From: Anaerolineae bacterium
GTDB lineage: Bacteria > Chloroflexota > Anaerolineae > Aggregatilineales > JAFGMM01
DNA: 64,000 bases
Reading direction: 5' to 3'
Assembly (NCBI GenBank): GCA_027494055.1
Contig: JAOSJO010000012.1
Coordinates: 496,001-560,000 of the forward strand
Shown: positions 11,615 to 18,829 of the stretch, piece by piece
Layout: the number at the start of each line of letters is the position of its first letter
Position numbering within the stretch: position 1 is the stretch's first letter
Notes under the pieces: generated by a model
Seen by the model: only the letters and a program-made list of their open reading frames with translations
What the model was told of the DNA's origin: nothing
Database searches by the model: none
Translations under genes and position numbers: made by a program

Positions 11615-12650
11615 ATGAGGACTGTGGTCAAGAAACGCGCAACGATGCGCGAAGTTGCCAAACTGGCCGGCGTCTCGCGTACAACCGTCTCGTTCGTGCT
11701 CAACAACACGCCCAATACCAACATTCCACCGGAAACCCGGCGTCGTGTGTTCGAGGCGGCGCGCCAGCTCAACTACGTTCCCGACGCCAAGGCCCTTACG
11801 CTCGTTACCGGGCGCACGCAGATGCTCGGCCTCGTCATGCGGCAGACGCCGTGGCAGATCTACGCCGACGCTTTTCTGAGCAACGTCCTGTTTGGGCTGA
11901 GCAGCGCGATTGAGTACGCGGGGTATCACGTGTTGGTGCACCCTGTGACCGACGACATAAGTTACACCCAGCTCGCGCGTTCGCAGAAGGTGGACGGCCT
12001 GATCCTCTCTGGCCCGATGGTTGAGGAGCCGGAACTCACGGCGCTCCACGCAGAGGGGGACGCCCATCGTGGTCCAGGGGACCACCATGCCGCGCGCCGT
12101 ACCCAGCGTGGATGTGGACAACGAGGCCGCAGCGCGCGCCGCCGTCACGCACCTGCTGGCGCTGGGCCACAGGCGCATCGGCCACATCACGAACGCACCC
12201 ACCGTCTACGCGGCGGCCCACGACCGGCTGGCCGGCTACTGCCAGGCCCTGGAGACGCACGGCGTCCCCTATGACCCGCGCCTGGTCTACGAGGGCGACT
12301 TCACGGACGACAGCGGCGCTGCCGCCATGCGCACACTCCTGGACCTGGACGAACCGCCGACCGCGGTTTTTGTCGCCAGCGATGTGGTCGCGCTCGGCGC
12401 GTTGCAGGTCATCCGCGAGCGCGGGCGGCAGGTACCAGAGGACATCTCGCTTGTCGGTTTCGACGACATCCCGCTCGTGAGCCATCTGGACCCAGGCCTG
12501 ACGACGATTCACCTGCCGGCGTTCGAACTGGGCCAGCGCGCCGGCGAGATGCTGCTGAGCCTGGTCTGGGGCAACACTCTGGAGCAAACGCGCGTCCTGC
12601 TCGATACCGAGCTGGTCGTCCGCGGCTCGGCGGGTCCGCCGCCGGGCTGA
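11615..12650 (+). CDS. LacI-family transcriptional regulator (frameshifted)
   Basis: This is a sugar-responsive DNA-binding repressor. The N-terminal helix-turn-helix reads MREVAKLAGVSRTTVSFVLN and is followed by the hinge and a periplasmic-binding-protein-like ligand domain that ends with VPEDISLVGFDDIP. A one-base slip in a G-run at about 12053-12059 splits the ligand domain; the halves join smoothly. The ATG at 11615 keeps the usual short lead before the helix-turn-helix. It is the first gene of a locus with a sugar binding protein, two permeases and a trehalose synthase, so trehalose or maltose is the likely effector (inference). It is probably autoregulated through the palindrome at 11487-11500. 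Confidence 0.9.
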
Positions 12651-12792: not shown

Positions 12793-14095
12793 ATGCGCAA
12801 GTTACTCGCTTTGCTCGTGGTGTTCGCCCTGTCCGTCGCGGTCTTGCCCACCGGCGCACAGGAAATGGACTTCGATTGCGGTACCGATCAAGAAGTGGTC
12901 CTCCAGTTCATCTCCGGGACCGTTGGCGGTGAGCATGAGGCTACCGTAGCGGTTGTGGAGAACTACGCAGACGTCTGCCCGAACGTGGTCGTGAACGTGC
13001 TCACGCGCCCGACCAGCACGACTGAAACGCTGGCTCCAGTACCAGCAGTTCTTCGAGGCGCAGAGCGGCGCGGTGGACGTCTATATGCTCGACGTGTTCT
13101 TCCCGGCCATCGTAGCCGAGCACCTGGTTGACCTGACGCCGTTTATCGATCAGGCGTTCCTTGACCAGTACTACCCGGCGCTAATCGAGGCCAACACCGT
13201 CGGTGGTCAGTTGCTGGCGCTCCCCTGGTTCGCGGGCGCGGGCATGCTGTACTACCGCACCGACCTGCTGGAGAAGTACGGCTATGATGCACCGCCGGCG
13301 ACCTGGGCCGAACTCACCGAGATGGCGCAGGCGATCCAGGACGGCGAGCGCGCCGAGGGCAATCCGGACTTCTGGGGCTTCGTGTGGCAGGGCAACGCCT
13401 ACGAGGGTCTGACCTGCGACGCGCTGGAGTGGCAGAAGTCCTTTGGCGGGGGCGTCATCATCAACCCTGACGGTGTGATCGAGGTGAACAACCCGGAAAC
13501 CATCGAGGCGTTTGACCTGGCGGCAAGCTGGGTGGGGACCATCACGCCCGAAGCCGTGTTGAGCTATCAGGAAGAAGACGCGCGCGCGGTGTGGCACGCC
13601 GGTAACGCCGCCTTCATGCGCAACTGGGGCTACGCCTACACCCTGAGCCAGGCTGATGACAGCGCGGTCGCGGGCAACTTCAGCGTCGTGCCGCTGCCGG
13701 GCAGCGAACCTGGCATGGGCGCGGCCACCCTCGGCGGCTGGCAACTGGGCGTCACCAAGTACTCGAGCAACATCGATGCGGCAGTCGCCTTCGTCAAGTG
13801 GATGGTGAGCGACGACCAGTTGAAGCAGTACCACTTCCTGCGCGGCGAGCAGCCTGTCATGCCGGCGCTCTATCAGGACGCCGAACTGGTTGAAGCGCTG
13901 CCATACCTGGCGGACATGGGCAACATCCTCAACTTCGCCACGGCCCGCCCCGCCGTCGCTGGCGCTCAGTACAACGACGTGTCGCAACTGTACTACACCG
14001 CTGTCCACTCGATCCTTGAGGGACAGGCCGACGCGGCCACAGCCATGGCCGACCTGGAACTGACCCTGGCCGACCTGGGCTTCGAACTACCGTAA
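12793..14095 (+). CDS. Sugar ABC transporter substrate-binding protein, family 1 (frameshifted)
   Basis: This is an exported solute-binding protein for a carbohydrate importer. The signal peptide is residues 1-21 (cleavage near PTGAQ). There is no lipobox cysteine at the expected place, so anchoring is unclear. The mature part shows family traits: VVNVLTRPTST, PWFAGAGMLYYRTDLLEKYG, PPATWAELTEMA and GGWQLGV. A frameshift at about 13027-13040 lies between residues 78 and 85. Trehalose/maltose binding proteins (ThuE/LpqY type) are the closest group I can name. The ribosome site is GAGGAG. It lies about 140 bases after the LacI gene. Confidence 0.88.
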
Positions 14096-14159: not shown

Positions 14160-14238
14160 CTGATACCGTAAGCGGACGTTCTCGCTGACCCCAATCGGGG
14201 GACTCGCCCGCCTTTCCTGGCAAACGGAGGCACCGGAT

Positions 14239-16149
14239 ATGACACTCGTTCCTCCTGGCACCACGCGACGACGCCCGACCGAGCAAGAAGCCATCGCGCT
14301 GGAACTGGTGAGCGCCCTGCTGATGTTCATCGGCCTTGTCGCGTTCGGATATCTCTTCTACGCCGTGACGACCAACGACGACATTCGCACGGCCACACAA
14401 GGCCCCACAATACCAGGCATTGGTGTGGAGGTCGTCAAAATCGAGCCGACCTCTGACGCGGAACAGCCCTACTTCGAATTGCGGCCTGTTCCCAATGGGC
14501 CAGCCGCCGCCTCTGGCGTCTTGCGGGGCGACCGACTCACCCTTATTGACGACACCGAGATCACGCCCGACATGAGCATCGAGCAGGTGCGTGCGCTCAT
14601 TGCTGAGGAGGTCACACCGCCTGGGGGCGACGATTTCGTCATCAACATCGGATTCGCGCGCCCTCAGGCCGACGGCAGCCTTCAGCCCGCCACCAGATCC
14701 GTTCCCAAGAACGTCGCGCCGGTGTTCATAATCGCGTTCCTGCAAAACTTCGGCATTGTGATTCCGCTCTTGCTCATCGTCCTCGGCGCGGTGATCTTTC
14801 GCCTCGGCACGCGGTTGCGCCGCTATGACATTGTCGCCGCCCGCTGGTCGCTGGTCGTGCTCCTCTGGTTGATGGTGGGCCTGGTCGTGGTGGCAATCCG
14901 CAACTTTTGGGTGGACGGCAAGGGCGGGTTCATCACCGATCAGCCGTTCAATGTCGGCAACGGACTTGGCAGCGCCCTTCCTCCCCTGCTGGCGATTATC
15001 CCGCTGGCAATCGCGTCCCGCTGGCTATCGGGCGCAGTCAACGACCTCTTCGTCGGGGATGAAACCCTCACCTCCCGAAACACCCGCTTCGCCTGGAGCT
15101 TGCTGGTCCCGACGCTCGCGGTGTTGATCCTGGTCGCGGGCCAGCCGTTGGAGCAGACGTTCATCACCAGCCTGACCGATGACGAATTCAGCGTCAGCCG
15201 ACCTGTGCAGTTCGTGGCGTTTGAAAACTACTCCAACCTGTTGAGCGTTCAACTGGTCCTCGTCAATTGCCAGAGAGACGATGAGGGCGCGTGCGCGCGC
15301 ACACCAAACGGCTCAATCATCTGGGAGCGTTCCAGCATCGAGACTGAAGAAGCGCAGAGACTGCGTGAGCTTTCCAGCGCCGAACGCCGGGGATTTGTCC
15401 GGTTCCAGGAAGTGAGCACGACACCGCTTGCATCAGGGACGGGCCTGCGCATCTTGGGCAGGGACCCCACCTTCCTCAACGCCCTCGGCAATACCATCTA
15501 CTTCACGGTTGTTGCCGTCACCTTGGAATTGCTCCTGGGCTTAATCATCGCGCTGGTCGTCAATTCCAATTTCAGGGGACGGGGCCTGATGCGGGCAGCG
15601 ATGCTTGTACCCTGGTCGATTCCGACAGTGGTCTCTGCCGTGCTGTGGCAAACCATGATGCGGCCCGACCAGACTGGCATCTTCAACCGGCTCCTGATGG
15701 ACCTTGGCCTGATTTCGCAGCCGCAGCAGTGGTTTGCGAACACTGGACCGTGGATGGCTTCGATCATCGCCGTTGACGTGTGGAAAACCGCGCCGTTCAT
15801 GGCGCTGCTGTTGCTGGCAGGACTCCAGGTGATCCCTGGCGAGGTCTACGAAGCGGCCTCTGTCGACGGCGCAGGTAAGCTGCGGCAATTCTTCTCGGTG
15901 ACATTGCCGTTACTGCGTCCCACCATCGCTGTCGCGCTGATCTTCCGCACACTCGACTCGCTGCGGGTGTTCGACGTGTTCCAGGTGCTTCTGGACACGA
16001 GGCGCCCATCCATGGCGACCTACAACTACGACCGGCTGGTCGCCGGGCGGCTTGCCGGCTACGCCTCCGCCGTTGGTGTGCTGATCTTCATCCTCATCCT
16101 TGTCTTCACTGTTATGTACGTCAGGATCGTGAGGATAGAGCAAGAATGA
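14239..16149 (+). CDS. MalF-type sugar ABC permease with N-terminal PDZ-like domain
   Basis: The last 230 residues are a standard inner-membrane permease of the MalF group. They include the ABC-ATPase contact loop EAASVDGAGKLRQFFSVTLP at 539-558. The total is 636 residues, about twice the usual 300. The extra part begins with a membrane segment (22-43). A PDZ-like domain follows at about 60-140, with the characteristic NGPAAASGVLRGDRLTLID stretch. Then come about three membrane segments (160-187, 201-222, 247-268), the first MalF helix near 286-303 and an outer loop with two Cys (344, 352). By topology the PDZ-like domain should be outside the membrane, where it could meet the binding protein or a protease; that is inference. 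There is no frameshift. The stop overlaps the next start (ATGA). Confidence 0.88.
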   Translation: MTLVPPGTTRRRPTEQEAIALELVSALLMFIGLVAFGYLFYAVTTNDDIRTATQGPTIPGIGVEVVKIEPTSDAEQPYFELRPVPNGPAAASGVLRGDRLTLIDDTEITPDMSIEQVRALIAEEVTPPGGDDFVINIGFARPQADGSLQPATRSVPKNVAPVFIIAFLQNFGIVIPLLLIVLGAVIFRLGTRLRRYDIVAARWSLVVLLWLMVGLVVVAIRNFWVDGKGGFITDQPFNVGNGLGSALPPLLAIIPLAIASRWLSGAVNDLFVGDETLTSRNTRFAWSLLVPTLAVLILVAGQPLEQTFITSLTDDEFSVSRPVQFVAFENYSNLLSVQLVLVNCQRDDEGACARTPNGSIIWERSSIETEEAQRLRELSSAERRGFVRFQEVSTTPLASGTGLRILGRDPTFLNALGNTIYFTVVAVTLELLLGLIIALVVNSNFRGRGLMRAAMLVPWSIPTVVSAVLWQTMMRPDQTGIFNRLLMDLGLISQPQQWFANTGPWMASIIAVDVWKTAPFMALLLLAGLQVIPGEVYEAASVDGAGKLRQFFSVTLPLLRPTIAVALIFRTLDSLRVFDVFQVLLDTRRPSMATYNYDRLVAGRLAGYASAVGVLIFILILVFTVMYVRIVRIEQE

Positions 16150-17001
16150 ACGCGCAACCGCCTACAAACTTGCGACACATTCTCTCTCGAGGGCTGTTCT
16201 GGCTACTGGTGCTGCTCATCGCTGCCTACACCATGCTCCCGTTCTTTTACGCCATCAGCATCTCGTTCCGAACCAACGCACAGGTGCTGGTTCAGGCGCG
16301 GTATCTACCCGAAGCACCCACGCTGGTGAACTACCAGAACCTGTTCAGCGACCGCGCCTTCATGAACACCATGCTCAATTCGGCGGTCGTCGCCACCGTG
16401 ACCGTTTTGCTGTCGCTGGTGGTCGGGTCGTTTGCAGCGTACGCGCTGGGGCGCGTGGAATTCCGGGGGCGGATGGGCGTGCTCTACCTGGTGCTGGCGA
16501 TGACAATGTTTCCCCAAATCTCCGTCCTATCCGGCCTGTTCAGAATCGTCAACGATCTGGGCATCTACGGCTCAACTCTGTCGCTGATGTTCACCTACCC
16601 CCATCTTCACGATGCCGTTCACGGTCTGGGTCCTCACCAGCTTCTTCCGAGGCCTGCCGGGAGAGATTGAACAGGCGGCGCTGGTCGATGGCGCGACCCC
16701 GTTCCAGACGTTCTGGCGCATCCTTGTGCCGCTGACCGCGCCGGCGCTGGTGACGACCGGGCTACTGGCGTTCATCGCGGCCTGGAACGAATACCTGTTC
16801 GCGTTGACCTTCACCCTGGTCAGCCCGGATGCGCGGACGGTACCCGTGGCGATCGCGAACTTCGCGGGTGTGGGCTATGAGATCCCGGTAGCCGCACGCA
16901 TTGCGGCAACCGTCATCGTGACAGTCCCGGTGCTTGTGCTTGTGCTCATCTTCCAGCGCCGCATCATCGAAGGCCTGACTGCCGGCGCGGTGAAGGGCTG
17001 A
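16146..17001 (+). CDS. MalG-type sugar ABC permease (frameshifted)
   Basis: This is the partner permease of the upstream MalF-type protein, with about six membrane segments. The N-terminal helix is followed by [15 protein letters not shown] and [24 protein letters not shown]. The ATPase contact loop [21 protein letters not shown] lies in the second half. A slip in a five-C run at about 16598-16602 splits the gene. The start ATG overlaps the malF-like stop, so translation is coupled. No ATPase gene is in the cluster; a shared MsmX/UgpC-type ATPase elsewhere is the usual solution. Confidence 0.9.

Positions 17002-17190: not shown

Positions 17191-18829
<1,639 letters not shown>

Follow-up and report, generated by a model that had tools for sequence, protein, structure and literature searches.

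A MalF-type sugar importer permease carrying an extracytoplasmic PDZ domain in an order of Chloroflexota

Within the window (the whole 64,000-nucleotide stretch of Chloroflexota DNA analysed here) lies the gene of a sugar importer permease that almost certainly combines the MalF/SugA-like half of a Type I importer with four helices specific to its lineage and an outward-facing PDZ domain. The gene occupies positions 14239 to 16149 of the forward strand, on which all window features with a stated role below are also found, and encodes 636 residues in one frame starting with ATG. An RBS-like GGAGG (14226 to 14230), recognised from the sequence, is located 8 bases 5' of the start. ABC importer permeases have been studied very well, and PDZ domains in them are apparently undescribed: no account of a PDZ-bearing ABC importer permease was found in the open-access literature, which was the scope of our search.

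Pfam places both PF00528 (residues 431 to 630, E 2e-17) and the PDZ family PF17820 (PDZ_6, residues 83 to 122) in this one protein. The score of the latter is 27.5 bits for the whole protein, against a cut-off of 27, and rises to 31.2 bits if the PDZ segment is searched by itself. An AlphaFold2 model based on 43 orthologues (mean pLDDT 80.6) shows a PDZ-type b-b-a-b-a-b-b fold at residues 63 to 156, with pLDDT values mostly between 83 and 91 and a drop to 59 at residues 121 to 130. A single helix (TM1, residues 15 to 44; 14281 to 14370) precedes the PDZ domain (residues 57 to 158; 14407 to 14712), which is inserted into the loop that joins TM1 to TM2, the first extracytoplasmic one, across the membrane from the cytoplasmic EAA loop, and is missing from relatives that have the helical extension only. 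It contains the carboxylate-binding-loop motif G60-I-G-V63 (14416 to 14427), in which G60 and G62 are invariant among 16 single-PDZ sequences. After the domain come TM2 to TM4 of the extension (residues 163 to 193, 198 to 227 and 239 to 270; 14725 to 15048), identified from the model, the tree and the loops of relatives. The model then continues with the first core helix (residues 277 to 311; 15067 to 15171; also covered by PDB sequence matches), an outer P2-like loop (residues 312 to 409; 15172 to 15465) with a conserved cysteine pair (C344/C352), and the rest of the core (residues 410 to 636; 15466 to 16146), assigned by Pfam, PDB sequence matches and Foldseek; in the model the core spans residues 277 to 631. 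The EAA coupling loop (EVYEAASVDGAGK region; 15838 to 15876) is apparent from the sequence and from invariant alignment columns. The earlier note had described a 636-residue permease in one frame, with a PDZ-like domain and extra helices ahead of a normal core, and this description agrees with Pfam, AlphaFold2/Foldseek and conservation alike. The domain search and structure prediction that it proposed as checks returned PF17820 and PF00528 in the same protein, and a PDZ-like fold rather than none.

The PF00528 core and the EAA loop, together with an adjoining SBP_bac_1 protein and MalG partner (both frameshifted in the assembly), place the protein among the CUT1 (MalF/carbohydrate) Type I importer permeases, whereas the PDZ assignment is based on the Pfam score above the gathering cut-off, the fold and the G-hydrophobic-G loop. 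Judged by its sequence the permease is MalF-type and not MalF itself, as the E. coli MalF equivalog NF008232 scores 77.8 bits against a cut-off of 392. Both the PDB sequence search (E 1e-38 for SugA) and Foldseek match the core to SugA and MalF; PDZ-bearing CtpA (rank 37) and DegQ (rank 47) appear lower among the Foldseek PDB matches. SugA of the mycobacterial LpqY-SugABC system (7cad, 8ja7) is the best match of the core in structure and sequence (Foldseek TM-score 0.80-0.84 by target length) and its system shares disaccharide import, but SugA measures about 300 residues and has neither the four-helix extension nor the PDZ domain. Its binding protein LpqY is a lipoprotein, whereas the substrate-binding protein (SBP) here has no lipobox. 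E. coli MalF (MalFGK2) is alike in being MalF-type and in having additional helices at the N-terminus as well as a large domain on the outside in contact with the SBP. However, this P2 domain differs in fold and is placed between TM3 and TM4 rather than between TM1 and TM2, and the P2-like loop that our permease has besides the PDZ domain is shorter. The PDZ domains of CtpB/CtpA (S41) and DegQ share the bacterial fold, the G-hydrophobic-G carboxylate loop and the extracytoplasmic location, but they are joined to a protease, whereas here the partner domain is an ABC permease without any protease domain.

Comparison with intact relatives reveals apparent frameshifts on both sides of the permease. 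The cognate SBP (12793 to 14095), similar to solved trehalose/maltose and related sugar-binding proteins, is frameshifted near 13035-13040, and the partner MalG (16146 to 17001) between 16598 and 16603; the latter had been taken to be of normal length (about 284-311 residues in relatives), which does not hold for this assembly. LacI (11615-12650) and treS (17191-18829) are also split between frames, and together the four cases suggest indel errors in the assembly. Although frameshifted neighbours might cast doubt on the fusion itself, the probability that it is a product of frameshift or misassembly is practically negligible: the single-PDZ architecture recurs in one frame in 15 other genomes, which rules out such an artefact, and the model is confident for all parts of the permease. 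The order (Aggregatilineales-type Chloroflexota) is represented by 154 genomes, of which 19 have PDZ versions and 16, the source genome included, the full single-PDZ form. Because full-length orthologues with 61-74% identity recur across other families of the order, chance or misassembly can be excluded for the fused reading frame. Close pairs yield dN/dS values of 0.05-0.18 for the PDZ segment, which on this sequence comparison is under purifying selection. Residues F79-E80, R141, R153 and K157 are invariant, as are the two loop glycines; mean identity is 0.66 over the segment against 0.87 over the core, the better conserved part.

A tree of 58 permeases built from the core only, with the PDZ columns excluded, shows that the architecture arose in two steps: a plain permease acquired the four-helix extension once (85/91), after which one PDZ domain was inserted into the first outer loop. 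The PDZ clade (100/99) is nested within the extension-only permeases and has the extension-only permease of genome G026 as its sister (98/92). Accordingly, the loop that holds the domain measures 13-22 residues in extension-only permeases and 115-120 with one PDZ, and reaches 237 and 440 residues in arrays, where the PDZ number later rose to two (G052) or two to three (G032). The G052 permease has two Pfam PDZ stretches in one protein. Of the candidates in the 440-residue loop of G032, Pfam accepts the middle PDZ, scores the first weakly (E 0.03) and misses the third, which only a tblastn alignment to the 636-residue permease brings out. In a further genome, G054, a PDZ is located within the P2-like loop, and the N-terminal half of the permease is off the contig. 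The P2-like loop lengthens along the same evolutionary path. Four of the five outgroups have 19 residues there, the exception being G164 with 78; plain permeases of the order have 58-71, most extension-only forms 76-87, and the forms at the end of the path 89-95, with 89-93 in those with a single PDZ. In other Chloroflexota sampled, the best matches span the core only and lie in short frames. The N-terminal half was seen as a separate gene, the second refutation named in the earlier note, in no relative examined; in PDZ-less relatives a single frame covers TM1 and TM2-4, which the short loop connects.

A second PDZ permease, of the MalG type and 518 residues long, is present in the source genome (G000:C23:24197-25750; L194 6198-7754, forward strand). 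It consists of N-terminal helices, a PDZ domain (PDZ_2, 29.6 bits, cut-off 27), further helices and the core. This extension is matched in about 49 of the 154 genomes of the order; of five members put through Pfam, two exceed the cut-off and the PDZ matches of the other three are weaker. Among the other Chloroflexota sampled, the orthologues align with the permease from about residue 229 onward only. In this order the PDZ domain was hence acquired by permeases of two subunit types, unrelated to each other, and apparently independently. Two gains and the graded forms (no extension, extension, one PDZ, two, and two or three) make up a natural series, which bears on how an unanchored SBP is held near the importer mouth in cells without an Omp85-type outer membrane.

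The SBPs of the order differ from those of other Chloroflexota in lacking a lipobox. No credible lipobox was found in 45 cognate SBPs of the order, nor in 30 SBPs of the source genome (L150-L179), the sole regular-expression match in each set coming from an over-extended frame, whereas nine of ten SBPs of other Chloroflexota have one and the tenth has a LEAC box by eye. Most of the 30 have N-termini like those for signal peptidase I or Tat. Loss of the whole lipoprotein pathway is ruled out by the presence of Lgt and LspA. No Omp85 was found in the source genome, which is estimated to be 86% complete. The only constant gene set of PDZ operons is SBP-MalF-MalG, and the neighbourhood comparison showed no dedicated partner gene apart from SBP and MalG; neighbours common to several PDZ loci occur in subsets only or are present beside PDZ-less loci too. 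The adjacency to LacI and treS, which the earlier note proposed to survey, turned out to be uncommon (11 and 7 of 76 loci) and is ruled out as a constant context.

Based on the unlipidated SBPs, the missing Omp85 and the two constant partners, we propose that the PDZ domain may act as a docking arm on the outer face. Its role would resemble that of the P2 loop of E. coli MalF, which touches MalE (PMC3150292 and work cited there), with another fold: it would keep an extracytoplasmic partner, most probably the cognate SBP, at the importer mouth. Without lipid anchor and Omp85 outer membrane, the SBP would otherwise diffuse away from the cell. We lean slightly towards the view that the domain binds a protein or peptide in trans, and tentatively name the cognate SBP as the candidate, at a little under an even chance. 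Outer-face topology, conservation in the clade, low dN/dS, invariant loop glycines, recurrent PDZ gains, the LTD domains in the MalG of G032 and the growth of the P2-like loop on the way to the PDZ forms count in favour of docking. Against it, PDZ-less relatives of the order also have unlipidated SBPs, so that the domain is dispensable for retention; Lgt and LspA would make lipid anchoring possible; and conservation is lower in the PDZ segment than in the core.

A narrower reading, which we consider improbable, is that the PDZ groove specifically grips the C-terminal tail of the SBP ([FY]x[LF]P-COOH) as a substitute for the lost lipid anchor. In the window the candidate ligand would be GFELP (14078 to 14092). 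A tail of [FY]x[LF]P plus 0-2 further residues ends all 17 SBPs encoded in PDZ operons (the one of the window and those of 16 relatives), against 1 of 28 in extension-only, 0 of 3 in plain operons of the order and 0 of 11 in outgroup operons, and G026, sister of the PDZ clade, has neither PDZ nor tail. PDZ domains of the CtpB type bind C-termini, one of them with a penultimate proline, and the CtpB carboxylate loop Gly-Ile-Gly-Ala is equivalent to the GIGV of the permease (PMC3808539). However, the association is a single evolutionary event on the tree, and part of the tail could be ancestral, given the longer F-x-[VI]-G-x-P-P tail of the plain relatives. AlphaFold2 moreover places the tail at pLDDT 93 in a beta-bridge onto the SBP body, and in the second system the SBP tail is conserved and much the same with or without PDZ, which rules out a general rule linking PDZ permeases to a special tail. 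The contact with the binding protein tail suggested earlier is partially supported: the distribution of the tail speaks for it, and the single event, the packed tail and the second system speak against it. If true, it would mean lipid-free SBP retention by a permease PDZ in a cell without outer membrane, evolved stepwise.

Alternatively, the domain might be a structural or spacing module, or bind cell-wall or S-layer material without any peptide ligand. We regard this as unlikely, though still a serious competitor: the lower conservation fits a spacer, and other outer loops of relatives hold unrelated inserts (LTD, or uncharacterised stretches of 100-170 residues), but the invariant glycines, F79-E80, R141, R153 and K157 and the apparently independent gain in two permease families argue against a mere spacer. 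Very improbable is a link to a quality-control protease (HtrA/Ctp), to which the domain would recruit or present the importer, or else a role as regulatory sensor. The permease PDZ does resemble those of Ctp/Deg proteases. As the latter bind substrates, the likeness indicates the origin rather than the partner of the permease PDZ. No protease gene is constant in the neighbourhood, and for the protease contact put forward in the earlier note we found no evidence.

Some further observations concern the relatives. A MalG-type permease of G032 (L086 4744-6906, reverse strand; 720 residues) has two LTD domains (PF00932) between the first helix and the core, and two PDZ-less relatives (L088, L089) have P2-like-loop inserts of about 100-170 residues whose fold is without assignment. 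In G026 (L094) the SBP signal peptide is nearly that of congeners (G014 and others), whereas the mature part and the permease are of the PDZ-less type; by sequence, a mosaic replacement of this operon is possible. Finally, the 'Pleurocapsa minor' record JAHHHY010000007.1 (L036/L102) is apparently a contig of a genome grouped with the Chloroflexota order, and is likely a mislabelled or contaminated MAG.
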